Shown: in pieces, positions 4,298 through 57,846 of the stretch
How positions within the stretch are numbered: the stretch's first letter is position 1
Layout of the letters: each line of letters starts with the position of its first letter
Assembly (NCBI GenBank): GCA_015232315.1
Contig: JADFZZ010000015.1
Location: 1 to 64,000 of the forward strand
From: SAR324 cluster bacterium
GTDB lineage: Bacteria; SAR324; NAC60-12
DNA length: 64,000 nt
Direction: 5' to 3'
Position numbers and translations under genes: made by a program
The notes under the pieces: model-generated
Seen by the model: only the letters and a program-made list of their open reading frames with translations
Database searches by the model: none
What the model was told of the DNA's origin: nothing

Positions 4298-4366
4298 AAT
4301 CACCTCATGGATTTATTAAAATTAATAGAATATCGAATTTTGCACAGGATTTGTTCATTTTCTGTT

Positions 4367-4975: not shown

Positions 4976-5157
4976 GTTGGCAAAGAACCTTGCTTGCGGG
5001 AAACAACTTCAGCAATGACATCACGTAATTTATTAAAATGGTGATCCATCGCTTCAATTTTTTTCAGACGTGCCTCATTACCCGCCTGCCTAATTAAAAC
5101 TGAGAGTTGTTCCTCTCCGTCTCTATCTGTTTCTTCAAATGCTATTTTTTTTTTCAT
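4972..5157 (-). CDS. Putative antitoxin partner of the Zeta-type kinase
   Basis: A small charged protein of 61 residues (MKKKIAFEETDRDGEEQ...), mostly helical, ending four bases inside the kinase gene. I do not recognise the family from sequence. The antitoxin role is inferred from size, order and the 4-nt overlap with the Zeta-type gene. ATG at 5157 has a weak CGAGA ribosome site; an upstream TTG at 5178 would add seven residues. The C-terminal half contains a helix with HHFNKLRDVIAEVV, which could contact the toxin. Confidence 0.6.
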   Translation of the reverse strand: MKKKIAFEETDRDGEEQLSVLIRQAGNEARLKKIEAMDHHFNKLRDVIAEVVSRKQGSLPT

Positions 5158-5180
5158 AGATTCTCGAAGTAAATTCAAAA

Positions 5181-6803: not shown

Positions 6804-7870
6804 TAACGGGCCTCAAACAGGGTTTTAATCACTGTGACCGTATCCGATTTACTGTTGATTTCTCCAAGACGCACCACATCATCCTTGTGAAATTGAGTCG
6901 AGATCTGGCGATTGAGCAAACTCATGCGCCCCGGTTTGACTTCCACCACGCCAATCCGGTTGAACACAGGCCTCATGGATGATTCCAGCAATTCCACAAT
7001 CGCGGCGGCGTCCGCGTCAAACAATTCGCCATCGCCAAAATAAAACGCGTAATAATTGGTGGATGACGGATCATATTCATTCATCGCCACCTGATGCACG
7101 AGTTGGAACACAATGGAGGCTTCCGTGCCGCCCACATTGCTGATGTTATAAAACTCATCCGCCTGCACTTCATAGGCCTCTGAATCATGCACGAAAAACC
7201 GGTGCTCCACCTTGCCTGCGCCATAATTGAAATCGAGCCAGTTCTGGATGAAGTTGACCAGCCGTTTTTCCAGTTCCAGCCGTTCGCCATAGGTGGAATA
7301 GGAAATATCGCCCATGTAAAACACAACGGCTGAAAATTTGGGCTTTTCCACACGCTCAGGCTGTTTGAACCGTTTGTCCCTGCGGCGGAATTCCAGGTTG
7401 TATTTTCCTTCTGCGGGATTATACACACCGGTTCCCACACTGGTTTTCAAGGCTTTCCGGAAGGTTCGTTTTTTATCAAGCAGAACGCCCACCGGACCAA
7501 ACGTTTTAAATTCGTGGGAGAGTTCCTTGATTTTTCCACGGCTGGATTTGGTCAAATTGGGCAGTTTCAGTTTTTCAGCGATCAGTTCCATCAGTTTTTG
7601 GAACGGCAGATTGAACCTGAGTTTGCCGCCACCTTTTCCGGACCCCGGACCGCCAGCGCCTTGTCCCGCACCGCCTTCTGCCTCATTTTCATACACAAAA
7701 GTCGGCACAACGATGTCATCCATTTCCACAATGATGTCACTTCCCCGTTCTCCAAAATTGGTCAGGTTGCCTTCGTTGAGGATGTTCTGGACAAGGTTGT
7801 CCATCTGTTCATCCATGAACTCATTGAACGCCCCTTCGGACTCGTTGGAGGAAATATTGTCAATGGACAT
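6803..7870 (-). CDS. yeaH: YeaH/YhbH family protein (DUF444)
   Basis: A protein of 355 residues. The N-terminal region is acidic and includes a glycine-rich linker (about 70-85), a usual feature of this family. The C-terminal half is von Willebrand A-like, with a MIDAS-type DISYS and a GGTEAS threonine loop. YeaH is a conserved partner of PrkA and SpoVR; in E. coli yeaG and yeaH are co-transcribed under nitrogen starvation and stress. The ATG at 7870 lies 8 nt after the stop of PrkA paralogue 2; an in-frame extension to 7942 would overlap that gene and looks spurious. The first metal-site residues are DxSxS, so metal binding is plausible. Confidence 0.9.
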   Translation of the reverse strand: MSIDNISSNESEGAFNEFMDEQMDNLVQNILNEGNLTNFGERGSDIIVEMDDIVVPTFVYENEAEGGAGQGAGGPGSGKGGGKLRFNLPFQKLMELIAEKLKLPNLTKSSRGKIKELSHEFKTFGPVGVLLDKKRTFRKALKTSVGTGVYNPAEGKYNLEFRRRDKRFKQPERVEKPKFSAVVFYMGDISYSTYGERLELEKRLVNFIQNWLDFNYGAGKVEHRFFVHDSEAYEVQADEFYNISNVGGTEASIVFQLVHQVAMNEYDPSSTNYYAFYFGDGELFDADAAAIVELLESSMRPVFNRIGVVEVKPGRMSLLNRQISTQFHKDDVVRLGEINSKSDTVTVIKTLFEAR

Positions 7871-7878
7871 AATCCGTC

Positions 7879-10098
7879 TCAGAGAATGATGCTGGAAGCA
7901 TTGGCGGTGATGGTCAATGCCTGATACGCGCATTTTCCGCAATAGCCCCGAACTTCCATCAGATATTTGATGGTGTCATTGAGCTGTTCCTGTTCTTTTT
8001 TGTTCACCACCGCTGAACTGGTGCCGCTTTTGATCCAGCCCAGCAGTTTCATGTTTTCACCGGACTTGAATTCGTTTTCAAACACATATTTTTTGATGGC
8101 GTTCTGATACGAAGGTTCATCGGACAGAATCACAGCATAATTCACGCTGGAAATGGCATCGCTCAATTCCTTGCGGAACACTTCCTTGTCCGGAATTCCG
8201 AGATACTGTTCAATTTTCTGCATGAATTTTTCATCAGGCTGTACATCGGTCTGAGTCACATCGTGTTTGACTTTTGCATGATGGGCATAGGCCCTGACAT
8301 GGTCGGTGTATTTTTTCCAGGTGGATTCAATCACAGAGTCATCCCGCAAAATCGCGCTGTAAACATCACTGGCGATCTGGCCGAAAATCCAGCTTTTGGC
8401 TTGAGGCAGGATTTTTTCCACATAATGACTCAGCCGTGTTTTCTGGGTGGCATACGAATCCTTGAGGGAGCGTTCCATCTGCACATACAGGTCAAGCGGC
8501 GTGGAACAGGGATTTTCCAGCGCGATGGATGTCAGCATAGCGTGTTCTCCGGCTTCTTCCTGAAGTTTCTTGATATTGGCCGCGTGTTCATTGATCTGAA
8601 AATGCTCGGTGGTTTCAAACACATTTTGAATAAACCGGGGGTCCAGACCAAAGGTTCCTTCTGAGGGTTTTACAAATTCAAATTCATCCAGAATCATCTT
8701 GGCCATGTTGTTGTCAGCGCCGCTGTCGGTGCGTCCGGCGTAAATCAGCGCTTTTTGTAGCAGGGTCATGTTGGGATTCTGTTTGGATTCATACAGTCGA
8801 GACATGGTGGACATCAGACTCAACAATGCCAGACTGTGAGGCGCGACATGGGCCATGTGTTTTTTCTGTTTGTTCCAGTGGCGGTGTTCGTTGGAATAGG
8901 TGAAGGCGTAAATCTGCTGTTCCTGAATAAAATCCACAGACAAGGGCATTTCAATGAATGTGGTTCTGGAACGCAAGGCTTCAAACGAGGCGTTGCCCAT
9001 GAACATATTGAATTCATGAAAATTGGTGTGTCCGATGATCACGCCGTTGAACGGGATCGGGGGTTGACCTTCCGGTTTGAAAAAACGGTCCTGGGTGGCA
9101 AACAGCAATTCGTACAGAAACTTGTCCGAAAGTTTCAGAATTTCATGAATTTCCACAAAACCATTGGCTCCGGCACACAGTTCGCCTTTGTAGTCATGGA
9201 CCAGTGGATGTGATTCACTGCCGAAGCGTGGCAGAAGGCTATAGTCAATGTTGCCTACCAGTGAACCGGCTTCCTGACTTTTCTCATCCCGTGGCGTGTA
9301 GGAACCAATGCCGGTTTTGGTGCGTGAATCATAAATCATGCGTTTGACTTTGAGGAATTTGACCAGTTGGGCAAATTTGATTTTTTTGGCTTTCATGAAT
9401 TCTTTGAGAACATAATCCGAATAAGGCGACAGCCAGCCCTCAATCTGGATTTTGAATTCATTGTCATAATGTGGATGCTGTTTGAGCCATTTTTTGATGG
9501 AATCCGCATCGACCTGTCCAGTCAATTCGGCCGCAAAACTTTCACGAATGTTGGCGGGAATGGCCTGTAACGGCATCTCAAACAACGGACTTTGCAGATA
9601 ATACACGCCATCTTCCTCAAACAACGCGCGTTCTTTCAGACGTTCATCCACGGTGGGCAACAGGAGTGTGTAGGTCTTTCCATGTTCTGAAACAGAATAT
9701 TCATGCAAGGCCTGTTTGACTCCATCCATGGAGCGAGATTTGGCGGAACCGGGAGGCCCGAGCAAGATCCAGAGTCGTTTGGACGCTTCCAGTCCACGGC
9801 TGGCATTGTTGACTTTTTCCACCAGATTCATCTTGGCTTTCTGCTGACCGAATACAACGTATTTGCCGACCAGTTCCGGTTCTTCAAAAAACTGATACCG
9901 GTGTTTCACAGGTTTTCCCACCACGATAGAATGTTCCACACCCCGTGAAAGAATCATGTCATGCAGGAGCTGAGGCGTGGTCCGGGTGATCCAGGGACAC
10001 TGCCGTACCAGTTCGAGATATTCCGTGAAGGACAGAATTTCTTCCGCGACATCGTCGGAACTGGTTTGCTCAAGTAACGAATGCAAGGTTTTATTCAT
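7879..10098 (-). CDS. prkA: PrkA-family AAA+ serine kinase homologue, paralogue 2
   Basis: A 739-residue protein with the PrkA layout: VVFGQQ before the ATPase core, Walker A GPPGSAKS (114-121), a Walker-B-like strand GFVEIHEIL, a GHTN sensor strand and a long helical C-terminal part. It ends near a CGKC pair (GYCGKCA), which is also seen at the end of other PrkA proteins. It is the copy immediately upstream of yeaH and spoVR, so it is the better candidate for the canonical prkA. The ATG overlaps the VKOR-like gene by 4 nt and has GGAGAG upstream. Two PrkA homologues in one operon is unusual and suggests distinct partners or a hetero-oligomer. Confidence 0.9.
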   Translation of the reverse strand: MNKTLHSLLEQTSSDDVAEEILSFTEYLELVRQCPWITRTTPQLLHDMILSRGVEHSIVVGKPVKHRYQFFEEPELVGKYVVFGQQKAKMNLVEKVNNASRGLEASKRLWILLGPPGSAKSRSMDGVKQALHEYSVSEHGKTYTLLLPTVDERLKERALFEEDGVYYLQSPLFEMPLQAIPANIRESFAAELTGQVDADSIKKWLKQHPHYDNEFKIQIEGWLSPYSDYVLKEFMKAKKIKFAQLVKFLKVKRMIYDSRTKTGIGSYTPRDEKSQEAGSLVGNIDYSLLPRFGSESHPLVHDYKGELCAGANGFVEIHEILKLSDKFLYELLFATQDRFFKPEGQPPIPFNGVIIGHTNFHEFNMFMGNASFEALRSRTTFIEMPLSVDFIQEQQIYAFTYSNEHRHWNKQKKHMAHVAPHSLALLSLMSTMSRLYESKQNPNMTLLQKALIYAGRTDSGADNNMAKMILDEFEFVKPSEGTFGLDPRFIQNVFETTEHFQINEHAANIKKLQEEAGEHAMLTSIALENPCSTPLDLYVQMERSLKDSYATQKTRLSHYVEKILPQAKSWIFGQIASDVYSAILRDDSVIESTWKKYTDHVRAYAHHAKVKHDVTQTDVQPDEKFMQKIEQYLGIPDKEVFRKELSDAISSVNYAVILSDEPSYQNAIKKYVFENEFKSGENMKLLGWIKSGTSSAVVNKKEQEQLNDTIKYLMEVRGYCGKCAYQALTITANASSIIL

Positions 10099-13720: not shown

Positions 13721-16510
13721 TTATTTGATCTGAACACACAAGTTGGCAGGCAGGCTGATCTGTAATTCGAAGTTACGTCCGGTAGACGAGCCTTTGGTAT
13801 TGTCCAGAAGGATGGAAACATCACCGCCCTGGCCTTGAAGGAAGCGTTTGACAGCGTCCATCCCGACACCTCGTCCTGAAATTTCTGAAACTTTTTCAGC
13901 AGTGGACAAGCCTGATTTAAAAATCAAATCAGCGGCCTCCGTATCAGAAACGGTACTCACATCGGAAAACAATCCGGTTTCAACCGCTTTATTCTTCAGT
14001 CGTTCCAGATTCAGGCCTTGCCCATCATCGCCCATTTTCAGGATCAACCGGTCATTGATCATATCAGCGGTCAGCCAGATATTGCCCTGAGCTTCTTTGC
14101 CCTTGCCCAGACGAATATTACCGGTTTCCAGACCATGATCCATCGAGTTGCGGAACATGTGCATGAACACATCTCTCAGCATGGGGATGGAGTCCTGAAC
14201 CACACGGATTCCGTTGTCATGGATTTCGACTTTGGGTGGCTCTTTCTGAAGTTCAGCCGCCAGTTTTGGCAGGTTCTGCACAATTTCCTGCACAATGCCA
14301 TCCAGGGGTTGTGTGTCCATAGCCTTGCGGAAACGTTTGATGGAAGTCGCACCTTTGGGGAAGGTTTGTTGCATATCGAGTTCCAGTTTTTCCAGATAAC
14401 TGATCAAGGATTTGTCAATCATTTTGCCTTCGTCACCGCTTCCGGCAAAGCCCTCCAGTTTTTCATGGAATACTTCAGCATAGCGGGCAATTCCCTTTTC
14501 AGCCAGTTCCAGTTCAACCAGCAATTCTTCGCTGTTCCAGATTTTATCCGGATCTTTTCTGAGTTGGTCATAGGTGTGTTCCACCTGATGGGTTGCGTCC
14601 GTGATATAGCTCAAGCCATAGGTACGGGCATTTCCCTTGATGGTATGCATGTTGCGGAACAGGGTCGCAATGACATCTTTGTTTTTGTCATTTGTTTCAC
14701 TGATGAGTTTGCGGTTTTCCTCAATGAATTTATCCGCGTTTTTAAGGAACGTATGGAATTTGGTGGCAGACACAGTAAGAATCTGGCCAATGATTTCCAG
14801 TTCTTCTTTCTGCTGGTTCGCTTCAGCCTGTAATTTTTTCAGTTCCGTCATATCCCTGACACAAAGCAGTATTTTTTCAATCGTGCCGTCGTTGGACATG
14901 GGAGACCAGGAAAATTCAAGGTGCTTGGTTTTTCCATTGATCACTTTTTCGATTTCACCGATCAGTAGATGCTGGTTGAACATGAAGTTCATTTCATCTT
15001 CACCCAGACTGGAACTGATCGCGGTTTCCATTTGATCCAGATCGTTGATGCCGACACTGGATTCCTTGAAAATCAGATCCATCACATTCCTGCCGGTGAT
15101 TTCTTTGGTCTCGAAGATGGTTTCCAGAAAATGGGAGTATTCGGGATGAATGGTCTCATCTTCCTGGATGGCAAGGATTCCTTCCTCCAGATTTTCCAGC
15201 ATACTGGCAATATCATTGGTTTTCTGGCGCAATTTTTCAGTGCGCTCTTCCACGATTTTTTCCAGATTTTCATTGATGTTTTTCAGGTCACGCACCAGTC
15301 GTTTGTTTTCCAGAAACGTATCGGCAAAAATGTTACTGGTAACCCACAGAATGGCGAAAATCGCACCCAGAATACCAAACGCGATGGTGGAAATGGTAGA
15401 CAACAACCCTAGTGCCAGCATGATGTCATTGACCGCTGAAACGAGAAAGATGGACATCAGCACCATCATGGTTCCCGTATGCGGAATCCTGTTGCGTATC
15501 CCCTTGATCAACAGATAGAACATTATGAGGATGAAGGTTAGCACCAAGATAAAAATAATGGTGCGGAATATCTGGAATATATGGAGATTGAAATGAACCA
15601 GTCCAAGAAACAGGAAGGTGCCAGCCACAATCAGAGTGAGGATTCCTAACACCCAGTTCATCCGGGGGTAAATATAGTTGGTGACATACTCAGCAAACAA
15701 GACCATGAAAAAGATCGCACCCATCCCCCAGTAATGCAGAATCAGCAGTGTTTCCACATTCCAGTTACGGGTCATGATGTCAGTGGGATTGATGAGAAAC
15801 GGGTAAATTCCGAATGTAATCAAAAATACCGACAGATACATCGGATAACGGGTTTTGACGTAAACCAGCAAAAAGAAGAGTCCAAACAGCAAACATACCG
15901 TGGAAGCCAGCATCCTGAAGTCACCGCCCATGAAATGCCGGAATGCCAGGGAACCATCAAACTTCTGATATTTTCTGATTTCCAGAGGCAACTGATAAAT
16001 CCCTGTCATCAGAATGGTGTTCACACGCAGAGTCAGAACCTGACGCGGTTTGGTGATCGTAAACCGCACCGGAACCGGTTGCACCCCATAGTATCGTCCA
16101 AGAGTGATCTGACCTTCCCGGTCATAGATTTCCTCGCCGTCCAGGTAGGCATGGAATTTTCCCAGATAGGTTCCCACAAGAAAGGTAACCTCTGTCCCGA
16201 TCAAGTCAGGATTGAAGTCCAATACCGCCCGATACCAGCCCACTCTGAAATTAACTCCATCCTTGTAGGCTTTTTTCCACGGACCGGGAGCCTTGATGAC
16301 TTTCCAGTCAGTTGTATCAAGCACGACATTTTTGTTTTCAGGGCGATCATCCCGTGTGAACAGCCATGTGCCATGCATTGGAAAGGGTTTATCCAGATTA
16401 TCAATTTTGAACAGACAAGAATCACATTTGACTTCATCCGCGGCAAACGCAGGTGAAAACCAGAACACTCCCATCAGCAGTGAAATGATCAGAACGAATA
16501 TCTTTTTCAT
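13721..16510 (-). CDS. 7TMR-DISM receptor fused to Hpt and CheA-like histidine kinase
   Basis: A protein of 929 residues. A Sec signal peptide (residues 1-23) is followed by a periplasmic jelly-roll-like domain (to about 185) and seven membrane helices (about 200-392), the 7TMR-DISM arrangement. Then come a coiled coil, a PAS-like region (about 435-555), an Hpt-like helix bundle with the phosphorylatable His622 (MHTIKGNART), and a CheA-type ATPase domain with N788 (FRNSMDHG), DDGQG at 828-832 and GRGVG at 879-883. Phosphotransfer through an Hpt histidine rather than a DHp dimerisation domain is a chemotaxis-type mechanism. There is no receiver domain or CheW domain. The periplasmic domain probably binds a carbohydrate-like ligand, which is inference. 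Confidence 0.87.
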   Translation of the reverse strand: MKKIFVLIISLLMGVFWFSPAFAADEVKCDSCLFKIDNLDKPFPMHGTWLFTRDDRPENKNVVLDTTDWKVIKAPGPWKKAYKDGVNFRVGWYRAVLDFNPDLIGTEVTFLVGTYLGKFHAYLDGEEIYDREGQITLGRYYGVQPVPVRFTITKPRQVLTLRVNTILMTGIYQLPLEIRKYQKFDGSLAFRHFMGGDFRMLASTVCLLFGLFFLLVYVKTRYPMYLSVFLITFGIYPFLINPTDIMTRNWNVETLLILHYWGMGAIFFMVLFAEYVTNYIYPRMNWVLGILTLIVAGTFLFLGLVHFNLHIFQIFRTIIFILVLTFILIMFYLLIKGIRNRIPHTGTMMVLMSIFLVSAVNDIMLALGLLSTISTIAFGILGAIFAILWVTSNIFADTFLENKRLVRDLKNINENLEKIVEERTEKLRQKTNDIASMLENLEEGILAIQEDETIHPEYSHFLETIFETKEITGRNVMDLIFKESSVGINDLDQMETAISSSLGEDEMNFMFNQHLLIGEIEKVINGKTKHLEFSWSPMSNDGTIEKILLCVRDMTELKKLQAEANQQKEELEIIGQILTVSATKFHTFLKNADKFIEENRKLISETNDKNKDVIATLFRNMHTIKGNARTYGLSYITDATHQVEHTYDQLRKDPDKIWNSEELLVELELAEKGIARYAEVFHEKLEGFAGSGDEGKMIDKSLISYLEKLELDMQQTFPKGATSIKRFRKAMDTQPLDGIVQEIVQNLPKLAAELQKEPPKVEIHDNGIRVVQDSIPMLRDVFMHMFRNSMDHGLETGNIRLGKGKEAQGNIWLTADMINDRLILKMGDDGQGLNLERLKNKAVETGLFSDVSTVSDTEAADLIFKSGLSTAEKVSEISGRGVGMDAVKRFLQGQGGDVSILLDNTKGSSTGRNFELQISLPANLCVQIK

Positions 16511-32509: not shown

Positions 32510-34207
32510 TCAGTCTTTCATGGAATACTGAGCTTTCATGGAATAGATATAGTTCTTCCAGATTTTATCAAAACGTTCCTGACGGAAGGCCGGACTTTTG
32601 ATCAACTCCAAAGCCATTTTTTTCTGGAGATCCGAGTTGCTGGTTTTGGAATACAGCGTCAAGGCGTGTTTTGAAAAATCCCTGATCATGAAATCAAAAA
32701 TTTCTTCCATCAGATCTTCTTCGACCTTTTCAATCTTCATGTTTTCCAACAACAGTTGCCCATAAGCCACCAACGTGAAAATTTCACCCAAGGCCAGCAG
32801 ATAATCAATGTCTTTGGATTGCTCATCCGTTGGTCCGGCCTTGATCAATAATTTTTTAAACAACTCAATTTGTTCCCTGAAAATTTTCACATTCTCCAGA
32901 TTTACAGAGTCATAGGCCAGATGATAATCATGGAACTGAATCTTGCCCAGTCCTTTGGTTTCACCCTGATGGAACATGAATGTGTCATTGTTGTTGTCTG
33001 AACGTCGTGGAATTTCAGGAAAGGGTTGAGGGCTGAAGAAAAAGTTCTTCATGAATTTGACAATCAGGGCCATATTCACATGAACCGTTCCTTCCAGTTT
33101 GGGCAGCATTCCGATTTCATGAGCGGCAATCTCGAAAAAAGGCTCCTTTTCAAACCCCTTGGCCGCAATAATGTCCCATAACATCCGAACCACTTCTTCC
33201 CCCTGGGTGGTGACTTTCATTTTTACCATTGGGTTATACAACAGATAGCGTCGGTCATCTCTGGAGGCGGATCGCATGTAATCAGTTGCGCGCGTCGCAA
33301 ACAGTTTCATGGCAAACAGGCGGCAGTAGGAATCGACAAACAAACGCTGCACATGGGGGAAATCGGTGACAAATTTGCCGTAAAGATTGCGATTGGCCGC
33401 ATGATCAATGGCTTCATAGAAGGCGTGAGTGGCAAGTCCGATGGCTCCAAATCCCAGATTGAATTTACAGAGATTGATGGTGTTGAGCATGTCATCCCAG
33501 GCTTTTTGTCCCCGACTGAGAATATCATGGTTGGTGATGGGATAATCATTCAATCTGTATTCGGCAACATAGTTCTGCTCATTCACCACGTTTTTGACGC
33601 ATTCGTAGTTGGGGTGTTTGGAATCCACCACAAAAAATACATATTCATTGGTGCCATCAATTTTCGCGAAAGTAGACACCAGGGAGGCTTCATTTCCGTT
33701 ACCGATATAATACTTGTCGCCTCGAGCCAGCCAGGTTCCATCCGGTTGCGGGTACAGCATCATATCGGATGAATAAATATCGGCGCCATGTTCTTTCTCA
33801 GAAAGGCCAAACGCGAAAACAGCGCCTTCCTGGAGAAGTTTTGCGGTTTTGTGCTTCACGGCTTCATTGTCGCCGTTAAAAATCGGGCCGAGTCCAAGCA
33901 TGGAGACCTGGAAGGTGTACCAGTAGGTGATTCCATAGAAACTGCTGATTTCCGCAAAATCCACGTTGCGGAAGGTATTCCAGCTTGATCCGGGATCGCC
34001 ATAATTTTCTGGTGTCATCAAGGTGGCGAAGACCTGTTGCTGTTTTAGAAACTCTACAAATTCATAATTCCATTTTTTCTGATGCCAGTCTTCCTTGATG
34101 CTTTTTAGGCCTTTTTGCTCAAACCAGGCGATGATATTTTTCATCATTTCATTGGTCTTTGCGACCGGATGACGATCCTGATATTTATTGGGATTGAATA
34201 ATTCCAT
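32510..34207 (-). CDS. Acyl-CoA dehydrogenase-like flavoprotein
   Basis: A 565-residue member of the acyl-CoA dehydrogenase superfamily. The FAD/substrate region reads AFGLSEKEHGADIY, the middle domain has YYIGNGNEAS, and a helical C-terminal domain follows. The likely catalytic position is the Glu in PKLEGTVHVN. The N-terminal part is large, and the C-terminal extension (about 450-565) is helical. Its substrate is unknown. It is convergent with mcd and may belong to the same acyl-CoA metabolism, although nothing in the sequence ties it to the ethylmalonyl-CoA pathway. GGGAG lies six bases before the ATG. Confidence 0.78.
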   Translation of the reverse strand: MELFNPNKYQDRHPVAKTNEMMKNIIAWFEQKGLKSIKEDWHQKKWNYEFVEFLKQQQVFATLMTPENYGDPGSSWNTFRNVDFAEISSFYGITYWYTFQVSMLGLGPIFNGDNEAVKHKTAKLLQEGAVFAFGLSEKEHGADIYSSDMMLYPQPDGTWLARGDKYYIGNGNEASLVSTFAKIDGTNEYVFFVVDSKHPNYECVKNVVNEQNYVAEYRLNDYPITNHDILSRGQKAWDDMLNTINLCKFNLGFGAIGLATHAFYEAIDHAANRNLYGKFVTDFPHVQRLFVDSYCRLFAMKLFATRATDYMRSASRDDRRYLLYNPMVKMKVTTQGEEVVRMLWDIIAAKGFEKEPFFEIAAHEIGMLPKLEGTVHVNMALIVKFMKNFFFSPQPFPEIPRRSDNNNDTFMFHQGETKGLGKIQFHDYHLAYDSVNLENVKIFREQIELFKKLLIKAGPTDEQSKDIDYLLALGEIFTLVAYGQLLLENMKIEKVEEDLMEEIFDFMIRDFSKHALTLYSKTSNSDLQKKMALELIKSPAFRQERFDKIWKNYIYSMKAQYSMKD

Positions 34208-39732: not shown

Positions 39733-41103
39733 TCACCCCAGTTGATACAATTGAATCTGCTGATTCCGTCCACGAATGGGGACTTCGCCCAGGCTCACCA
39801 TGGATTCAACATGCATGATTTTTTCCCAGACAGATTCTGAAATGAGAATCTGGGAATTGAACTGTTTGTTGAGTTGTTCGATGCGTGAGGCCAGGTTGAC
39901 CGTGTCGCCAATCACCGTGTATTCCTTGCGGGTTTGCGAGCCGATATTGCCGGTAATGGCGTTGCCGGTATGCAGGCCGATGCCAATTCGTGTGGGCTGG
40001 ATTTTTCCTTCCTGAATCAGGGTTTCGATCGTTCTGCAAATTTCAAGAGCCGCATTCACGGCATTCTGGCTTTCTTCACCATCGGCCAGAGGCGCCCCGA
40101 AAATTGCCATGAATCCATCTCCCAGAAATTTATTGATGATGCCTTTGTGTCGATTGATGATTTCAATCATGAATCCAAACAGGGTGTTGAGATAAACCAC
40201 AACTTCTTCAGGCGAATGGGCTTCTGAAAACCGGGTGAATTGCCGAATATCCAGAAACATCACGCACACATGCCGCATTTCGCTGTTCACATCCGTTTTT
40301 TGTTGCAACAACTGATTCACCACTTGCGGAGAAACATGCTGTCCGAACATATTCACCACCCGGTTGCGTTCTTCAACTGAATTGAACGACAGCCAGATTC
40401 TTTTGTTGATTTCGCGGGCGATCAGTCCGGTGATAAAACCAGTACATGCCAGAATCGCGGCTTTATCCAGATGATGAAAAATATTGGTCATGGCATAGGG
40501 ATAAGACTCTGCTGACGGTTGATGAATGCTGTACCACGATATTCCCAGATATTGCAGACCACTTAGAAAGCCCGATAACAGCGACATTTTGAAATCAAGA
40601 CGCAAGATGCTGAGTACCAGAAAAATAAAATACATATAGGTTGCCGGACCAAGGAGAGCGCCGACCGGATCAATAATATATCCCATCAGCCAGATACCGA
40701 TGGTGGGGATGGTGGTTTCTTCAATCACCTGTCCGTAACGCATCCATGTCACCCAGCGACTGTTGTCTTCAATGGCCTTGTGAATCACCATTTTGGAAAT
40801 GAATTCATACGCAATGATTCCGCCAAAAAAGAACCACGCATGGCCCAGGTGGAGCCGATGATTGAACAATTCATCGAATTGGCGGGGCAGAACCATGTAA
40901 AATCCTGTGACAACGATCAGTACCAGAGAAAAGATGGCAATGATCAGCAGGGTACGCAGTTCCTCAGCTCTCAATAATTGCTGGCGCAAGTAGCTTTCAA
41001 AGGCTTTCTCCGCATTTTCAGGAAGATGAGAAGTATGATGCAAGGAAAAGAGAGATGTGTGTTTCATGGCAATACGGAAGGAAACGCCATGTCCGTGAGA
41101 CAT
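39733..41103 (-). CDS. Membrane-anchored class III nucleotide cyclase
   Basis: 456 residues. Five or six membrane helices (about 50-230) precede a class III cyclase domain (about 270-450). The metal-binding aspartates are in MFLDIRQF and KFLGDGFMAIFG, and the transition-state Asn/Arg in TVIGDTVNLASRIE. This is a family of adenylate cyclases; GTP use cannot be excluded. The membrane region is not a HAMP or CHASE domain. It starts 17 nt after the FadL-like gene and could share its transcript. Two ATGs (41103, 41067) are possible and neither has a clear ribosome site. Confidence 0.88.
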   Translation of the reverse strand: MSHGHGVSFRIAMKHTSLFSLHHTSHLPENAEKAFESYLRQQLLRAEELRTLLIIAIFSLVLIVVTGFYMVLPRQFDELFNHRLHLGHAWFFFGGIIAYEFISKMVIHKAIEDNSRWVTWMRYGQVIEETTIPTIGIWLMGYIIDPVGALLGPATYMYFIFLVLSILRLDFKMSLLSGFLSGLQYLGISWYSIHQPSAESYPYAMTNIFHHLDKAAILACTGFITGLIAREINKRIWLSFNSVEERNRVVNMFGQHVSPQVVNQLLQQKTDVNSEMRHVCVMFLDIRQFTRFSEAHSPEEVVVYLNTLFGFMIEIINRHKGIINKFLGDGFMAIFGAPLADGEESQNAVNAALEICRTIETLIQEGKIQPTRIGIGLHTGNAITGNIGSQTRKEYTVIGDTVNLASRIEQLNKQFNSQILISESVWEKIMHVESMVSLGEVPIRGRNQQIQLYQLG

Positions 41104-41120: not shown

Positions 41121-42743
41121 TCAGGTTTCTGAGTCAGTAGCCCAGTCACAGAATTCCTTGACCCCGCCGAATTTGAAGTTATAGGTCACACTGGCCGCAC
41201 CCACAAGCCCTTGCCAGGTTCCATTGAACGGATCCTGAAACACACCGGCTCTGGCGTTGTTGCGAACGTCACTGTTGGTGGTGGTTGGCATAAGAATGAT
41301 GGTCGCAAAACCAAAACTGATGCTGTCTGTGTTCGACATGCGGTATTCTCCACCTATCCCCATTTTCACAACTTCCCCGATAGGGATAATCGCTGACATT
41401 AATCGTGGATCAGTCAAACTTGTGGTTTTTTCAGCGCCACCCCGTATCAGATATTTTTCATTGAAATGATAGGCTCCGCCAGCGCGGTAAACTTTGATAT
41501 CCTGTAATTGGAACGGGAGCGAGATATTGTCTTCTTCAAAGCCAACAATTTTCAACAGACTGGCACGCTGAGGCAAATCGGCACTCAGCGTAGAAAACAT
41601 GCTGAAACCGATTTCCGCATAGCCCACTTCACCTTCGATGGTTGGGTTTTCCGGATCATCTTTCCACCCCAGTGCTGTTTCCATATACCAGGGTAAGCCG
41701 ACATTGGCTTTGAACGACATGTCATTCAATTTTAAATTGAGTCCGTTGGACATGGCAGGGAACGCCTTGGAAATTGCGGTATCCGCCAGAATCAGACCTG
41801 CTTCAGCCAGCGGGTTGATGGAAAATTTCCCTTCACCGAGAATCGTGAGCTTGAAGGACGATTGATAATGCATAGCCAGAAAGAAATTTTCATATTGCCC
41901 GAGATAAGCCACATTGAAATTTTGTCCGCCACCATTTCCATACAAATGGATGGTTTCGTTCAATCGGATTGGATTACTCAACCCGAATAAACCCATATTG
42001 TCAGAGATAAATCCCATGACACCACCAACAATCGTGTCCAGATTGAACCCTTCAGGAAGCAGATTCGCCAGTCCCAGGGTCAGCTCATTGACATAATCGG
42101 TTACACCTTCCAGCACAAGAGGGTTATCCAGGTTCAGATCAATCCCATCCCGGCGGTAATCAAAATAAGGAATATGATGGGTCACGCCAAAGGCTATGTG
42201 ATTGTTCTCATCCAGATCGGTGGCATAGTTCACATTGAGTCCTACAATCACCAGTGTGACATCCTGTACAATATCTTTTCCTGCCCAGTTTCTATCCCAT
42301 TTCATGGCCGCCGCAAAGGTGGGTTTGAAGGCAAAACCCCAGGCGTCATCGTCATTTCTTTTGGCAAATTCAAAACTGGGTGCTGTTAGAAACCCACCTG
42401 TTTCAAGCGGCAATAGTTCAATGGGTAATGATGTTTCTGTCTGTTTTTTCCCGATATTCTTATCAGCCTGATCCGCACTGCCATCGCCCCCGAAAGAGCC
42501 TTCCCACTGCAATCGAAAATTGATGAGGTGTCCACCAATACTGAAATGCATTCCCGGTTCCAGTCGCATCATGCCTGCCGGGTTGGTGGCCACGGTTTCA
42601 GCATAGTCATTGAAGGTCATGACGGCATTTTGAACCAGTTGATTGGTACTCGTCAATGCGTTCCCCAAAGCACCATACGCTGTTGAAATGCCCATAAACC
42701 AGAGCAGAACCATTATTCCATTGATTTTCCATTGCGTTCGCAT
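41121..42743 (-). CDS. FadL/OmpP1-type outer-membrane channel
   Basis: 540 residues with a signal peptide (about 1-24, ending ...TAYG) and the FadL family NPAG motif (ETVATNPAGMMRLEPG). The remainder alternates strand-like segments ending in NFKFGG near the C-terminus. FadL channels import long-chain fatty acids or other hydrophobic compounds through a lateral opening. It is longer than the usual 400-450 residues, and the C-terminal 10 residues (FCDWATDSET) lack the typical aromatic end, so its barrel closure may differ. A possible operator hairpin lies 33 nt upstream at 42776-42790. Confidence 0.8.
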   Translation of the reverse strand: MRTQWKINGIMVLLWFMGISTAYGALGNALTSTNQLVQNAVMTFNDYAETVATNPAGMMRLEPGMHFSIGGHLINFRLQWEGSFGGDGSADQADKNIGKKQTETSLPIELLPLETGGFLTAPSFEFAKRNDDDAWGFAFKPTFAAAMKWDRNWAGKDIVQDVTLVIVGLNVNYATDLDENNHIAFGVTHHIPYFDYRRDGIDLNLDNPLVLEGVTDYVNELTLGLANLLPEGFNLDTIVGGVMGFISDNMGLFGLSNPIRLNETIHLYGNGGGQNFNVAYLGQYENFFLAMHYQSSFKLTILGEGKFSINPLAEAGLILADTAISKAFPAMSNGLNLKLNDMSFKANVGLPWYMETALGWKDDPENPTIEGEVGYAEIGFSMFSTLSADLPQRASLLKIVGFEEDNISLPFQLQDIKVYRAGGAYHFNEKYLIRGGAEKTTSLTDPRLMSAIIPIGEVVKMGIGGEYRMSNTDSISFGFATIILMPTTTNSDVRNNARAGVFQDPFNGTWQGLVGAASVTYNFKFGGVKEFCDWATDSET

Positions 42744-43108
42744 AAATCACTCATCATTTCAGGTTAGTTTTTTGACCTCACCTGGTGAGGCATCCCCCTG
42801 ACTGAATACTCCTGCTGAAATCACAGATCTGGCCTCAGACTGGAGTTTCATGTCGCTAGGTGTTGCTTTAACGGAGAAAATCATCTTTTGCAAGAAACAA
42901 CCTGAAAAAGATAAAAAAATTATAAATTCAGGGACTTGTTTTAAAAAATGAGGATTGTTCAAATTTCCCTTTGTGAACATGTATTTATTTTGATACCAGA
43001 AAATAAGTCAGATAGCGCGTGACGATGTCTTGACGTGAACTGATTTGTTTTGCAACCCGTTTATTAACCAGATTTGTTCTTGTCTGATCACAGCGGAACA
43101 GGAGGAAC
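42744..43108. promoter_or_regulatory. Divergent intergenic region with palindrome CCTCACC-T-GGTGAGG
   Basis: This 365-nt gap separates the FadL-like gene and the 27-residue repeat gene, which point away from each other. A perfect 7-bp palindrome with a one-base centre (42776-42790) stands 33-47 nt before the FadL start and is a candidate operator. The middle part (about 42880-42990) is AT-rich and probably holds promoters. GGAGG five bases before 43109 is the ribosome site of the plus-strand gene. No coding sequence is evident. Confidence 0.45.
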
Positions 43109-44827
43109 ATGCCCGAAGCCATAAAAGCTCCAAGTCCAGGAATTCTCATGAACTCAACTTTGCAGAAGATTCTCAATCTTGCGAATATTGCCACAATCCT
43201 CGTCATTTTTGTTGTGGCACCAGCATTTTTTCTGTCACGCTGGGCTGATCCGGTCATTGAGCATATCAGTGCCCGTTTTATCATTCCGACCATCAACAAA
43301 TACATGCGGGATAATCCGGAATTGCTGAGTAATTTACCCGGACGCATTGATCGTGAAGCCGCGGCGACCATGGTCAATAATCTGTTGCGGGAAAGTCCCG
43401 ATCTGCTGAGTGATTACGTCCAGCATCTGGATCCGGTGCTCATGGCTGAAGCACTGAACCGGGCCGCCAGAAACACGCCTGAATTTTCCAGCAAATTCGC
43501 GCAAAAAGTCGATGGAAAAGCGATTGGTACGCAGGTCAACATTCTCGTCAAGCAGAATCCGGCGTTTGCCAGTGAAATGCTGAGTGTTCTTGATCCCAAT
43601 GCTCTGGCTGGCATGATCAATACAACGATGAAGAAAAACCCGGATTTCGCCTCCAGTCTGCTGGCGGAACTGGATGCGGCGATCATTGCCCAGACCGTCA
43701 ATAATTTGTTGAAACAAAACACCGAGTTTGTTTCAAAAGTGGTGGGAGGCATCGACACAAAAGTTTTGACTCAGGGAATGAATATTCTGCTGGAGCAACA
43801 TCAGAAATTTATTTCCGGCATTGCGGGTGGTCTCGACACCAGGATTCTGGCATTATCCATCAACAATTTGTTGAGAGAACATCCCAAAATGCTGTCTGAA
43901 TTGATCAGCGGCATGAACACTCAAGGACTGGCGGTAACCGTCAATCATGTCATCAAAGACAACCCACGATTGGCATCCAATCTGGTGGGCGACCTTGAAA
44001 CCGGCAATATTGCCGCTTCCATCAATTATCTGGTTGAAGATCACCCCATGCTGCTCTCTGACATGGTCGGTGGGATGAATGCCACCGCAGTGGGTACCGC
44101 GACCAACAATTTGCTCAAAGCCAATCCCAAATTTCTGCCGGTTCTTGTGAAAAGCATGGATCCCCAGGTGGTGGCCCATGCACTCAATGCCACACTTCAG
44201 GAAAATCCGGAATTTCTGGCGACAATGGCCAAAGATCTTGATATGCAGGCTGTTGGAACTTCGGTCAATCAATTGCTCAAGCAGAATCCAAGGTTGGTCT
44301 CCAATGTGCTGAAACCGGTCAACGTCAAACTGATCGCGGATGCGGCGAATATCCTGATGGAAGAAAATACAGGATTCATGAGCGAACTTATCGGCGGACT
44401 GGATGGAAAATTGCTGGGTGGAGCCATCACCGTGCTGATGATGAACAACCCGGGATTTCTGGCCAAAGTGGTCAAAAACATGGATCTCCAACCTTCTGTT
44501 GAAGCAGTCAACATCCTGTTGCGTGATAACCGGGATATTCAGAAAGAATTCCTGAAACATCTGGATGTTGACGCGATGATGGTTGTGCTGAATCGTAGTG
44601 AGGAGTATCTGATTCCTATGGTCAACACCTTGTTCAGTCGTGAAAACCTTATGGGACAAATGGCCTGGCGTGTCAGCGGGACTTTTGGCTACAATGTCAC
44701 CTTTCCAACAATTCCTGTCGCAGGTTCCCTGCATGGTGGCTACAAGCTGTCAGAAGAAGATCTTGGCCGTTTCTGGGACAACAAGGAAGGCCTGCAAATG
44801 GATAAACCCGCATCCAAAAAGAAATAA
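43109..44827 (+). CDS. Membrane-anchored protein of fifteen 27-residue repeats
   Basis: A 572-residue protein of no family I recognise. A short lead is followed by one membrane helix (about 22-42, ATILVIFVVAPAFFL). From about residue 90 to 494 it is built of about fifteen consecutive 27-residue units without gaps: hydrophobic-N-hydrophobic-L-hydrophobic, then a polar NP pair, F/L-hydrophobic-S, then a second hydrophobic run ending L/M-D/N, then four small residues before the next N. Each unit should form two helices, giving a long solenoid. The end (about 495-572) is not repetitive. Ribosome site GGAGG at five bases. The solenoid would project into the periplasm or cytoplasm depending on helix orientation, which cannot be settled here. 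Confidence 0.8.
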   Translation: MPEAIKAPSPGILMNSTLQKILNLANIATILVIFVVAPAFFLSRWADPVIEHISARFIIPTINKYMRDNPELLSNLPGRIDREAAATMVNNLLRESPDLLSDYVQHLDPVLMAEALNRAARNTPEFSSKFAQKVDGKAIGTQVNILVKQNPAFASEMLSVLDPNALAGMINTTMKKNPDFASSLLAELDAAIIAQTVNNLLKQNTEFVSKVVGGIDTKVLTQGMNILLEQHQKFISGIAGGLDTRILALSINNLLREHPKMLSELISGMNTQGLAVTVNHVIKDNPRLASNLVGDLETGNIAASINYLVEDHPMLLSDMVGGMNATAVGTATNNLLKANPKFLPVLVKSMDPQVVAHALNATLQENPEFLATMAKDLDMQAVGTSVNQLLKQNPRLVSNVLKPVNVKLIADAANILMEENTGFMSELIGGLDGKLLGGAITVLMMNNPGFLAKVVKNMDLQPSVEAVNILLRDNRDIQKEFLKHLDVDAMMVVLNRSEEYLIPMVNTLFSRENLMGQMAWRVSGTFGYNVTFPTIPVAGSLHGGYKLSEEDLGRFWDNKEGLQMDKPASKKK

Positions 44828-44851
44828 CCGAACCCGTTAGTGATAGGAATT

Positions 44852-45529
44852 ATGTCTGCTTTTATCGCGTTTCCTCTAAATTCCGAATTGGAACACAAAC
44901 TCAAGGAGGCCTGTCGGCGAGTCCGCAGGGAACCGCCTGAAATTCAGCATCTGCCATTTGTCATCGACTTGATCTGTGAATTGGTGGATGTCGGCATGAA
45001 TTTTTATTTTGCAGGGTTGATTCAACGATTAAAACTTGGAGGTTGGGGGATCACCATCATCAACATGGCACTGAAAACAGCCAAGGGCGGATTGCATGTG
45101 ATGATCCGCAAAATTCTCAAAAACATGACGAATGAACAATTGCATCCACTCATGGGCCTGTTGGAAGAAATGCTACTTGAACATGACGGAAAAGCTTCGT
45201 TGGGATTTCCCATTGAAGGCGAACTGGCAGAACGCTTGAAAGAAAATGTCAGGCGTATCCAGAACGAATCCCCACCCAGCCAGCATTCTGAATACACACT
45301 CACTGTCATGTACGCACTGACAGACACCGGTCTGGACTTTTATTTTCTGGAGGCTGCCCGCAGATTGCAGGTTGGCCAGTGGGGAATGAAAACCGTCAAT
45401 TGGGGGGTGGTCATTGCGCGAAAAGCCATTCATGGAGCCATGAAAAAACTACTCCCCACCCTGAATGATGAACAATTGGCGACACTTTCAGGATTTGTGG
45501 ATGAAATCATGATTGAAATCGCAGGCTAA
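44852..45529 (+). CDS. Two-copy internal-repeat protein, partner of the 27-residue repeat gene
   Basis: 225 residues made of two homologous halves of about 105 residues. Both begin with a FP-(L/I)-x2-EL-x3-LKE motif and share RR-x9-P, a hydrophobic helix with FYF, QWG or GGWG (residues LKLGGWG/LQVGQWG), a helix of IARKAIHGAMKK/TAKGGLHVMIRK, and a closing NDEQL/TNEQL-x-LE helix. I do not recognise a family. It lies 24 nt after the repeat gene with AGGAA before the ATG, so they probably form one unit. Hydrophobic helices without a signal peptide suggest a soluble helical or membrane-associated protein. Duplication shows the single unit is a stable domain. Confidence 0.7.
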   Translation: MSAFIAFPLNSELEHKLKEACRRVRREPPEIQHLPFVIDLICELVDVGMNFYFAGLIQRLKLGGWGITIINMALKTAKGGLHVMIRKILKNMTNEQLHPLMGLLEEMLLEHDGKASLGFPIEGELAERLKENVRRIQNESPPSQHSEYTLTVMYALTDTGLDFYFLEAARRLQVGQWGMKTVNWGVVIARKAIHGAMKKLLPTLNDEQLATLSGFVDEIMIEIAG

Positions 45530-45551
45530 CACCTCAGCAGAAACAGGCCCA

Positions 45552-45788
45552 ATGTTTGTTGAAATAAGAAAAATACCTGGATTATCGGTTGTCGGCAAAT
45601 TACCCGTGGGCATGGAACGAGGCGGATTTTTCCTGAACATGGAACATATTCTGTTTGTCAGTTTCGAAACCAGGATGATCAATCTTTATACCGATGAGAT
45701 CGTCTTTCATCTGTATTTTGAAGAAGATGCCATGTCTGAATACCAGCGACTCAAAACCCTGTTCACCAAAAAATATTGTGCCAAATAA
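45552..45788 (+). CDS. Small unknown protein
   Basis: 78 residues (MFVEIRKIPGLSVVGKLPVG...) with alternating beta-type segments and a short helix at the end. No family recognised. An in-frame TTG at 45513 would overlap the preceding gene; I chose the ATG, with AGG 7 nt upstream. It could be part of the operon with the two repeat proteins. No signal peptide or cysteine pair stands out, apart from one Cys near the end (KKYCAK). Confidence 0.5.
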   Translation: MFVEIRKIPGLSVVGKLPVGMERGGFFLNMEHILFVSFETRMINLYTDEIVFHLYFEEDAMSEYQRLKTLFTKKYCAK

Positions 45789-47290: not shown

Positions 47291-48256
47291 ATGAAACGAT
47301 TGATCAACCCCTTGATTGACTGTGTGTTCAAGGCCATTCTGGGTGATCCGGAGCACAAGGGGATTCTGATTCATTTTCTCAACAGTATCCTCAAGCAGAA
47401 TTGCCCCATCACCGATGTAGAAATCCTCAACCCCTACAACGCCAAGGAATTCCTCAACGACAAACTCACAGTGGTGGATGTCAAGGCTCAGGATGCGCAA
47501 GGACATCTTTATCAGATCGAAGTGCAACTGACACTTGAACGATGTCTGAGTGAACGCATGCTGTACAACTGGAGCGTGCTTTACAAAAAACAAATTGAGG
47601 AAGGTGAAGATTATTCCCGACTTCATCCGGTCATTGCCATCTGGTTGCTGGACGGCACCCTATTTTCGGAATCATCTGTTGTGCATCATCATTTTCAGGT
47701 GTATGATTCTCAACATCAGGTCAGTCTGACGGATCATTGTGCTATTCATGTTCTGGAATTGCCCAAATGGAAAAAACCGGAACACCATCCACTCGAACCG
47801 GAAGATGCCTGGATGTATTTTTTCGAGGAAGCCAGACACTGGGAGAATCTCCCGGAAGAACTTCAACCCATTGAACCTTTGAGGGATGCCATGAGTGTCA
47901 TGAAACGTTTTGCCGAAAGAGATGCCGATTACTGGTTGTATGAAGCCCGCCTGGAAGGCCAACGACTGCAACGGTTCCGTGAAAACGAAATGCTGCGTGT
48001 TGAACGTGAAAAACAAAAGGCGGAGGATGATTTGAAACAGGCTCGTCAGATGTTGGAAGAAACCCGGAAGCAGACAGAGCAAGCACAACAGAACGCTGAG
48101 CAAGCACAACAGAAAGCTGAGCAAGCACAACAGAAAGCTGAACAGGAAAAACAGAAAGCTGAGCAGGAATTGAACATGGAGCGGCAGGAAACAAACAAAT
48201 TACGGGAACTGCTCAAACAAGCGGGAATTAATCCTGACACAGCCATGAAATCCTGA
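47291..48256 (+). CDS. Rpn/PD-(D/E)XK nuclease-transposase family protein with coiled-coil tail
   Basis: 321 residues. The N-terminal part (NPLIDCVFKAILGD, VVDVKAQDAQGHLYQIEVQLT) has the D..E-x-Q core of the PD-(D/E)XK family found in Rpn-type recombination-promoting nucleases and PF12784 transposase-like proteins. The C-terminal third is a strong coiled coil with heptads EQAQQKA, encoded by 21-bp tandem repeats at 48077-48160. Rpn proteins raise recombination and cut DNA; activity here is inferred. These genes occur in multiple copies in many bacteria. No transposon ends are obvious around it. Confidence 0.78.
   Translation: MKRLINPLIDCVFKAILGDPEHKGILIHFLNSILKQNCPITDVEILNPYNAKEFLNDKLTVVDVKAQDAQGHLYQIEVQLTLERCLSERMLYNWSVLYKKQIEEGEDYSRLHPVIAIWLLDGTLFSESSVVHHHFQVYDSQHQVSLTDHCAIHVLELPKWKKPEHHPLEPEDAWMYFFEEARHWENLPEELQPIEPLRDAMSVMKRFAERDADYWLYEARLEGQRLQRFRENEMLRVEREKQKAEDDLKQARQMLEETRKQTEQAQQNAEQAQQKAEQAQQKAEQEKQKAEQELNMERQETNKLRELLKQAGINPDTAMKS
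48077..48160 (+). repeat. 21-bp coding tandem repeats in the Rpn-like gene
   Basis: Four near-identical 21-bp units, GAGCAAGCACAACAGAAAGCT type, encode EQAQQNA, EQAQQKA, EQAQQKA and EQEKQKA. Copies 2 and 3 are identical at the DNA level, so the array may have expanded recently by slippage and could vary in length among strains while keeping the reading frame. Confidence 0.7.
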
Positions 48257-55509: not shown

Positions 55510-57492
55510 TCAGGAAGTGACTCTGAATGTGCGGCTTACTCCCTGATAAGGCACAAAATCACGGAATGTTCTCTGAGACCCCTGATACACCACCCTGTAA
55601 ATTCCCGGAATTGTTTCGTCCGGGATGTTCCAGATGATTTCTGCGATGAGGTCTTTTTTTTGCTGAAACCATCGAACCCGGGTATCCCAATCTGAATCGA
55701 CAGCAACGCATTCCCATCGGCCTTGATGCTGTCGTTCTACGAGCACATAGGTTTGAGTCTGCTCCAGGTCATCATTCGGATTGGATGCATTGAGCTGAAA
55801 CAGAACTTTCTCACCGGGATGGTATACGCTACGGGGTTGTTGGCGGACCATCCCCTGCGTGGGGCTTGCTTTCAGACTTCTTTGCCGGAGTTCCACACGC
55901 TGGAACATGGGGAACTGAAAAATCGGTGCCCGGGATTCCTTGACCGCAATGCCATACGCCATCATGTGAGACAGTTCGGAATAAATCTGCTGATACGCAT
56001 TGAAGGTATAGGGGCCAAAATGAACGGAGGCACCTTCATAATGCTGAAGTGCGTAGGCTTCCCGCGTTTCAATATAACCGGTGTAGGTATTGGCCAGTCC
56101 AGCGATCACAAGATGCTGGATCCCCTTGTTGATCAGGACGCTCGATAATTGATGTTTCAACCGTCTGCCACACATCGTGGTCATTTCTCCCGGAACTGAA
56201 ATCAAGCCCAGCATGCCAATCTGAAAAATCTGAAATGGCAGAGTTTGCGGCGTCCATGGTGCGTTTTGCGAAATTCCTGTGGGTAAAATGACAGGTTTAT
56301 GCTGATGTTCCGGATCATCCCAGAGGCGTGACAACATCCAGGTCGCAGTGCCAATGGCTTTAGCCGAAAGACCTTTATTGTGTTTCCAGATATGTGGAAG
56401 CGTCCATGTTTTGCCCTTGTTGAGTCCTTCCTGAATTCCCGGCACATCGCTGGGGCCATCCTGTGAGGCACCCGCGGCAAAGGAAACTCCCAAAGCCGAA
56501 GTTGGCAAACGAATTTCAGTGGTGCCCGTAAATTCCGGAGCAACCACATAGCCGGGCATTTTTACCCATCGGTGCCTAAAATCTAACGGTCCTGTCACAG
56601 GTTTGCCTTTTGCCTCAAACAATTCCCAGGCCTTCTCAAATTGTCTGAAACCGCATATTTCTGTACTTTCCAGGTCATCTTTCCCTTCGCCCATACCATC
56701 TCCCCGAATGTTGGGTGATGTATCACCATGCTCACTGTTGGCAAACGCCGCCACAAATGAATTATCCTTATATTTCTCCCGCATTTCTTTCTCAAAACGC
56801 CAGGCCGCATAACCTTTGCTGTCTCCGCTGATGTAACGGTTGTTTTTGCTGGTGGAGGTGGGATGAATCGCATACCAACTAATCACCCCCACAGGTTTTG
56901 CATCCAGTGTTGTGAATGTACAAACAGTCATTTCCTTGTTGGTATCATGCGGATATTCGATTGAGTCAGGATTTGCCCGATACGCTTCCGGAGAGCGATT
57001 GACGCTGATTCCTGTCAACTCCCCCCTGTTCATGAAAAACAGTCCCGGTTTCAATTGACGATGTGCCGTGATGACAGATTGAAAAATACCATTCACGATT
57101 CTTCTGAAATTCTGTGAGGAAAAACCCCAGGTGGTGATGTTGTATAACGGATAATGGGAGTATCCACCGGGGCCGGAATGCGTATGCGTTGCCGTGATCA
57201 TCACATTTTCATGATCATACAAGCCTTCGAAACGGCGTCGGAGTTTTCTGATGACAGCAAGCTTGATGGATTGGGAAATGAAACATAAATCCGCACAGAC
57301 AAATACCACTCTTTTTCCTGAGTCCGTATCGCGCATGATGAATGCCCGACTCCATAACCGCAGTTGAATGCCCCAGGTTTTCTGCTCAGGTGTGCCATAA
57401 CCCATCATCCCGAGACCCAGAACATTGCCGGTGATATCCTGTTTTCCAACGCCTATTTCATAATCTGAGGTGCGAGTCTGTGAAGATGTCAT
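55510..57492 (-). CDS. Neutral/alkaline ceramidase family protein
   Basis: 660 residues. IGVGKQDITG, MMGYGTPEQKTWGI, the zinc motif THTHSGPGGYSHY, SEHGDTSPNI and the C-terminal beta-domain show the neutral ceramidase family, which hydrolyses the amide bond of ceramide to sphingosine and fatty acid. ATG at 57492 is preceded by AGGAG. Unlike secreted members it has no recognisable signal peptide at either possible start, so it may be cytoplasmic, which is odd for an enzyme on membrane lipids. It could act on other N-acyl lipids. It is convergent with ppk1, with 2 nt between stop codons. Confidence 0.88.
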   Translation of the reverse strand: MTSSQTRTSDYEIGVGKQDITGNVLGLGMMGYGTPEQKTWGIQLRLWSRAFIMRDTDSGKRVVFVCADLCFISQSIKLAVIRKLRRRFEGLYDHENVMITATHTHSGPGGYSHYPLYNITTWGFSSQNFRRIVNGIFQSVITAHRQLKPGLFFMNRGELTGISVNRSPEAYRANPDSIEYPHDTNKEMTVCTFTTLDAKPVGVISWYAIHPTSTSKNNRYISGDSKGYAAWRFEKEMREKYKDNSFVAAFANSEHGDTSPNIRGDGMGEGKDDLESTEICGFRQFEKAWELFEAKGKPVTGPLDFRHRWVKMPGYVVAPEFTGTTEIRLPTSALGVSFAAGASQDGPSDVPGIQEGLNKGKTWTLPHIWKHNKGLSAKAIGTATWMLSRLWDDPEHQHKPVILPTGISQNAPWTPQTLPFQIFQIGMLGLISVPGEMTTMCGRRLKHQLSSVLINKGIQHLVIAGLANTYTGYIETREAYALQHYEGASVHFGPYTFNAYQQIYSELSHMMAYGIAVKESRAPIFQFPMFQRVELRQRSLKASPTQGMVRQQPRSVYHPGEKVLFQLNASNPNDDLEQTQTYVLVERQHQGRWECVAVDSDWDTRVRWFQQKKDLIAEIIWNIPDETIPGIYRVVYQGSQRTFRDFVPYQGVSRTFRVTS

Positions 57493-57846
57493 AAGTCTCC
57501 TGTCAAGCCGGGGTTCAGCCAACAAATCGGTGGATTGGACCGCTAACAACGCTGTCTACCATTGTTCTTAACAGAAAATTTTTATTTGGAAAACAGGAAG
57601 ATTGAATTCGACAGTATCGTTTTCTCAATGTGACAGGTCGTCTTTGACGGATGGACGCTTCAGAGATCCTCGAAATTGCATTGACGTATGTAATGTGGAA
57701 AAATTGTTTGCGTTCATCTTTCAAATCTGTTTGTATACGATCTGAAGCGGTTGTAACAATTATTCCTGTAATTTCAGGAGTTGTTACAGCAAGCCGTAAA
57801 AAATGATGACAGTCAGAAATATTTTTTCAATGAAAGAGGGTGTTTT
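57493..57846. promoter_or_regulatory. Divergent region with palindromic operator-like element
   Basis: 354 nt between the ceramidase-type gene and the J-domain-like gene, pointing apart. TGTAACAA (57752-57759) and TTGTTACA (57781-57788) are exact inverse copies 21 bases apart, with a small CCTG/CAGG palindrome between them. Such a nested symmetric site, about 60-95 nt before the downstream start, is a good candidate for a dimeric regulator. GAGGG at seven bases precedes the ATG at 57847. No gene is evident in the gap. Confidence 0.5.

Follow-up and report, generated by a model that had tools for sequence, protein, structure and literature searches.

The window analysed here, a 64,000-nucleotide stretch of DNA from a SAR324 cluster bacterium, carries three closely spaced genes, the first of which encodes a protein composed largely of 27-residue repeats behind a predicted membrane helix. 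This arrangement raises the questions of what fold and role such an array may have, and of whether the three genes constitute an undescribed system, as a preliminary description of the sequence had proposed.

The repeat array and the two genes that follow it

Gene 1 (43109–44827, + strand), delineated by its open reading frame and by lag-identity analysis, encodes 572 residues, and a Shine-Dalgarno sequence, AGGAGG, lies ahead of its ATG at 43100–43105. Promoter and terminator scans gave signals no higher than those of shuffled sequences. One N-terminal hydrophobic helix, the predicted membrane helix, occupies residues ~21–45 (43169–43243, +; Kyte-Doolittle maximum of 2.49 at residues 24–42), in agreement with the single membrane helix noted before. 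A degenerate unit at residues 53–79 (from 43265) precedes the main array, in which the unit listing and column counts define sixteen unbroken 27-residue units at residues 80–511 (43346–44641, +), slightly more than the approximately fifteen described previously. The last of the sixteen is degenerate. The remaining residues, 512–572 (44642–44824, +), form a non-repeat C-terminal tail that is first aromatic- and glycine-rich and then lysine-rich.

The self-identity of gene 1 reaches 28–29% at lags of 27, 54, 81, and 108 residues, with all other lags from 5 to 119 at or below 12%. The lag of 27 yields 114 identities in 427 positions, compared with a best value of 56 in 2000 shuffles (lags 10–59). 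In its natural frame, the unit reads L-D-x-x-x-[LIV]-[AG]-x-x-[VI]-N-x-L-[LM]-x-x-N-P-x-[FL]-x-S-x-[LMV]-[VL]-x-x, with the signature [LIVM]-D-x3-[LIV]-[AG]-x2-[VI]-N-x-[LV]-L-x2-[NH]-P-x-F-x-S. Asn-11 is conserved in 15 of the 16 units, Asp-2 in 12, and Pro-18 and Ser-22 in 11 each. Since TRF found no tandem repeat in the DNA behind the array, the array is old and visible in the protein only. When the longer helix of the unit is drawn as a helical wheel, Asn-11 falls approximately 130° from the hydrophobic moment and therefore could form a ladder along one face. An 18-bit single-unit match within a histidine kinase of the window (13721–16510) was judged to be a chance helical linker.

Structure prediction was performed for gene 1 by single-sequence AlphaFold (pLDDT 45) and for a four-unit block with four in-register rows (pLDDT 56). 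Both models predict an all-helical repeat region, with a helix of ~14 residues and another of ~8–9 residues in each unit, and their tertiary confidence is low. The predictions fit the helical array suggested earlier, and gene 1 is probably an α-solenoid.

Gene 2 (44852–45529, +) begins 24 nt after gene 1 and encodes 225 residues comprising two copies of an uncatalogued helical domain, at 44867–45190 and 45203–45526 (both +). Self-alignment of the halves gave 34% identity over 108 residues, confirming the duplicated domain that had been recognised in this protein. ATG 44852 is the best start because the paralogues of gene 2 start there in alignment. Gene 3 (45552–45788, +; best start ATG 45552) follows after 22 nt, as described, and encodes 78 residues, for which no relatives were found in Pfam, NCBIfam, PHROGs, or the fetched loci. 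The starts given in the open-reading-frame list, GTG 44840 for gene 2 and TTG 45513 for gene 3, are unlikely. Export signals are absent from gene 2 and gene 3, and a comparison by hhalign found no relationship between the repeat and the gene-2 domain. The tight spacing on one strand agrees with a three-gene operon, but the set was not seen in the other genomes examined.

Distribution of the two families

The genome that contains the window (5.25 Mb) holds a second repeat gene, on contig C31, which encodes 180 residues and lacks a membrane span. Three more gene-2-type loci are located on contigs C33, C5, and C38; the C33 protein is the closest to gene 2 (36% identity), and the C38 protein carries approximately four domain copies behind a membrane segment. 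Both families are absent from all 51 other genomes of the class. Within a sample of 383 genomes drawn from the whole domain, the genome itself included, the repeat family occurs in one other genome, G100, which belongs to a different phylum (E = 4e-26), and the gene-2 domain occurs in G100, G108, and G196. G100 is the only one of the 382 other genomes with both families, which it carries on separate contigs. In the class of G196, 369 genomes were scanned, which added four with a single-copy gene-2 domain (G450, G580, G591, and G660), bringing the genomes with this domain to six beyond G100 and the genome under study. Pattern scans for genes 1 and 2 across 84,980 species genomes, a method that reaches close relatives only, returned nothing, and no relatives of either gene were found in plasmids and viral contigs. 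A 168-residue protein encoded 4.3 kb downstream of the C31 paralogue was considered as a further repeat relative and rejected, as its similarity is not significant, with one window of it ranking 8th of 60,677. This uncatalogued helical protein (L011:9914-10420) contains a weak unit-like stretch, IPLDKLPETIKTIVWNEPEISLGVVGA.

These sequence comparisons indicate that both families are real, sparse, and wider than this operon. They recur in more than one phylum, and neither has a representative in Pfam, in NCBIfam, or among PDB sequences. The three-gene order, in turn, was seen in no examined genome except its own, and the repeat genes elsewhere, on C31 and in G100, stand without an adjacent gene 2. 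The preliminary description had stated that it would be refuted if related genomes lacked this order, and the order is missing from all 51 other genomes of the class, which include no second species of the genus. The part of its proposal concerning novelty holds for the two families, which are missing from the catalogues searched, but an undescribed conserved three-gene system is not demonstrated, as none of the other genomes examined shares the gene order.

Gene neighbourhoods and a possible scaffold

Divergent from gene 1, across an intergenic region assigned from the open-reading-frame map (42744–43108), lies a gene for an outer-membrane transporter of the FadL/TodX type (41121–42743, − strand; PF03349, E = 7.4e-21). 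A membrane class III cyclase gene follows fadL by 17 nt on the same strand (39733–41103, −; PF00211, E = 3.4e-31). Comparable neighbours accompany the paralogues of gene 2. The C33 paralogue precedes, by 9 nt, a gene for a full-length homologue of the window's cyclase (31% identity over 421 residues) and is divergent from a gene for an α/β-hydrolase/acyl-CoA-synthetase fusion; this locus makes the combination of gene 2, a membrane cyclase, and a lipid gene look like a duplicated module. The C38 paralogue is divergent from receiver-cyclase and chemotaxis-type signalling genes (the chemotaxis type being assigned by eye), and next to the C5 paralogue is a gene for a response regulator that combines a receiver with a cNMP-binding domain. 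In G100, a membrane protein with two cNMP-binding domains is encoded ~37 nt after the short repeat gene. The C31 repeat paralogue adjoins pyrF and lacks a cyclase gene within 21 kb.

Beyond G100, the gene-2 domain has other company. A single-copy gene in a gammaproteobacterium (L044:6616-6978) lies ~100 nt downstream of a wax ester/TAG synthase (WS/DGAT) gene. In two species of one gammaproteobacterial genus (L041:7483-7827 and L042:7600-7944), a small single-copy protein is encoded overlapping or just upstream of a RIO1-like kinase of the PA4780 family, of which it is a possible partner. These single-domain proteins match the ~105-residue domain of gene 2 with profile E values of 6e-12 to 3e-20 and differ from gene 2 in that the domain occurs once, not twice; among open reading frames of at least 80 residues in the fetched flanks of the gammaproteobacterial loci, none was a repeat gene. 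At two further loci, the gene-2-domain gene precedes flavin-oxidoreductase-like and SDR-like genes, named by eye (L030), or lies near a MaoC-type dehydratase gene (L031). Lipid and cyclic-nucleotide themes recur, but they are not universal.

Of the four gene-2-family loci in this genome, three have a class III cyclase within 5 kb, a distance range that covers 9.8% of the genome (binomial P = 0.0035). This is a post hoc statistic chosen after the loci had been seen, in which the C33 and window loci may represent one duplication. The genome holds 45 class III cyclase domains in its 5.25 Mb, most of them in open frames longer than 500 residues. A fast-evolving, lineage-specific repeat protein may stand by chance ahead of a gene-2-family protein with which it has nothing to do, with signalling genes close by because the genome abounds in them; the three genes would then form no functional unit. 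Such an accident is consistent with a gene order confined to one genome and with repeat and gene-2 genes that are unlinked both in G100 and elsewhere in this genome, on its other contigs. It accounts less readily for gaps of only 24 and 22 nt on one strand, for the co-occurrence of both families in G100, and for the cyclic-nucleotide neighbours repeated in two phyla, and we consider it rather improbable.

The reading that we favour, tentatively and as less likely than not, is that genes 1 and 2 encode a membrane-tethered α-solenoid scaffold and its adaptor, which would serve cyclic-nucleotide signalling connected with the uptake of lipids. In this model, gene 1 would form a membrane-tethered solenoid with ~16 short hairpins of helices and a regular Asn/Asp/Ser surface that would bind partner proteins, and the tandem-domain helical protein of gene 2 would serve as its adaptor. 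Together with the products of the divergent fadL–adenylate cyclase operon, they would constitute an inner-membrane scaffold that couples the uptake and handling of long-chain fatty acids or hydrocarbons to cyclic-nucleotide signalling. While the all-helical fold is predicted, we infer the scaffolding, the contact between genes 1 and 2, and the lipid and cyclic-nucleotide role, and all evidence of association comes from neighbouring genes, in a genome that carries 45 cyclases. Several observations argue against the proposal. The fadL and cyclase genes are divergent from gene 1 and not co-transcribed with it, the C31 paralogue has no cyclase nearby, two of the gammaproteobacterial genes for the gene-2 domain have a RIO1-like kinase as their neighbour instead, the order of the three genes was seen in one genome only, and the model pLDDT values, 45 and 56, are low. 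If the link to signalling and lipids is true, the locus would represent a new scaffold class for bacterial cyclic-nucleotide signalling, in which genomes like this one carry dozens of cyclases with few known partners.

The side of the membrane on which the repeats reside also bears on the scaffold proposal, since repeats in the periplasm could not come into contact with a cytoplasmic gene 2 or with the catalytic domain of the cyclase, which would count against it. Gene 1 could instead be a periplasm-spanning α-helical rod whose anchor sits in the inner membrane and whose repeats extend outside towards the outer membrane, where it would move or sense lipids with the divergently encoded FadL, gene 2 being separate and cytoplasmic. 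The one N-terminal membrane helix, the complete lack of cysteine in 572 residues, a stack of ~16 hairpins that by rough inference is long enough to cross the periplasm, and the neighbouring fadL are compatible with such a rod. However, the two short relatives, on C31 and in G100, have neither a signal peptide nor a membrane span, which favours the cytoplasm and places the repeat there in at least those proteins. Where gene 1 has its membrane helix, each of them starts with an amphipathic helix of cationic character. This feature suggests a cytoplasmic location for the working repeats, and the family as a whole may share the trait of attaching to a membrane or lipid surface. In addition, the charges flanking the membrane helix of gene 1 favour no clear topology, genes 2 and 3 lack export signals, and neither the G100 nor the C31 repeat gene has FadL as a neighbour. 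A periplasmic rod is accordingly unlikely.

Further genes were noted elsewhere in the window. A neutral/alkaline ceramidase with both Pfam domains is encoded at 55510–57549 (−; PF04734, E = 1.6e-153), and an acyl-CoA dehydrogenase at 32510–34207 (−). One cluster at 1805–10098 (−) comprises a PrkA kinase, a second, divergent PrkA-like protein, and SpoVR, and a transposase protein of the PDDEXK_2 nuclease family with a low-complexity QQKAEQA tail is encoded at 47291–48256 (+).

Comparison with known repeats and folds

The preliminary description had found the unit unlike known repeats, and this assessment was borne out by searches of Pfam (to E = 10) and NCBIfam with gene 1 and of Pfam with five unit blocks, which returned no TPR, HEAT, ARM, ankyrin, or LRR profile match. 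Searches of NCBIfam and PHROGs gave no credible match for gene 1, and PDB sequences gave none for the repeat or gene-2 profiles. For gene 2 and for its paralogues and more distant relatives, there was likewise no above-threshold match in Pfam or NCBIfam and no credible match in PHROGs. The phrase "27-residue repeats" was not found in the papers listed by a literature search.

The sole above-threshold Pfam match of gene 1 (hmmscan to E = 10) is to Cut8 (PF08559), at 32.4 bits against a gathering cut-off of 26.2 bits, in two stretches. Cut8 is a fungal nuclear proteasome tether. The better stretch aligns with profile positions 46–105, or 60 of 241, and does not cover the whole domain; four of the five unit-alignment blocks gave weak matches, with a best single-block E value of 0.0029. 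A column-shuffled copy of gene 1 gave no match, so the similarity is attributable to a common local hairpin motif rather than to composition. We judged this partial match to be probably convergent and not homologous. Gene 1 shares with Cut8/STS1 a hairpin of the HPEL kind in its unit, while Cut8 is not known as a 27-residue tandem array. Since the Cut8 cut-off admits a bacterial repeat protein, automatic annotation may mislabel homologues of gene 1.

Among the folds compared, the closest structural and hhalign resemblance was to the MgtE N domain (PF03448), FliG, and FlgY, in which short helical hairpins, of the sort predicted for gene 1, form a superhelix. These proteins share a right-handed ARM-like superhelix of short helix pairs, and FlgY provides a published precedent for reuse of the motif as a scaffold (PMC11870540). 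Gene 1 might be a far relative of this group that unit duplication has greatly lengthened and that serves as a scaffold for stacking or oligomerisation, not specifically connected with lipids or cyclic nucleotides. The Foldseek list for the four-unit model is headed by MgtE cytosolic domains and FliG, but with E values of at least 0.4 on a model of pLDDT 56. FliG is also among the weak profile matches of the repeat. The unit profile scored 23.6 in hhalign against the MgtE N domain of T. thermophilus (P = 0.0024), exceeding the scores of 300 shuffles and of 252 segments of natural proteins. However, hhalign assigns this match a probability of 12%, and other MgtE sequences scored low. A single-unit PSSM did not single out MgtE, with no significant result, and Pfam scans of gene 1 and the unit blocks gave no MgtE_N match. 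Gene 1 further differs in its strict 27-residue period, its conserved Asn-11 and NPxF, and its ~16 tandem units, as well as in the lack of a CBS domain, of a Mg2+ channel or flagellar genes nearby, and of a significant profile match. Based on these sequences and models, we consider kinship with this group doubtful and treat the resemblance as a low-confidence lead, not as membership.

With the HEAT, armadillo, and TPR α-solenoids, gene 1 shares, by prediction, the general build of tandem two-helix units. In these families, the units comprise roughly 30–42 residues, in contrast to the 27 residues of gene 1, and the hhalign scores of the unit profile against consensus TPR, ARM, and alphaRep sequences (9.2–11.4) lie at background, near the shuffle mean of 10.6. 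The unit LDxxxLAxxVNxLLxxNPxFxSxLVxx may conceivably define a separate class of very short α-hairpin solenoid with an Asn ladder, which together with the unnamed gene-2 domain would form a bacterial scaffold coupling lipid uptake to cyclic-nucleotide signalling; we regard this combined reading as a long shot. The array itself is regular enough to offer a natural template for the design of short-unit solenoids. Armadillo repeats carry an Asn ladder, which the regular asparagine of the gene 1 unit recalls.
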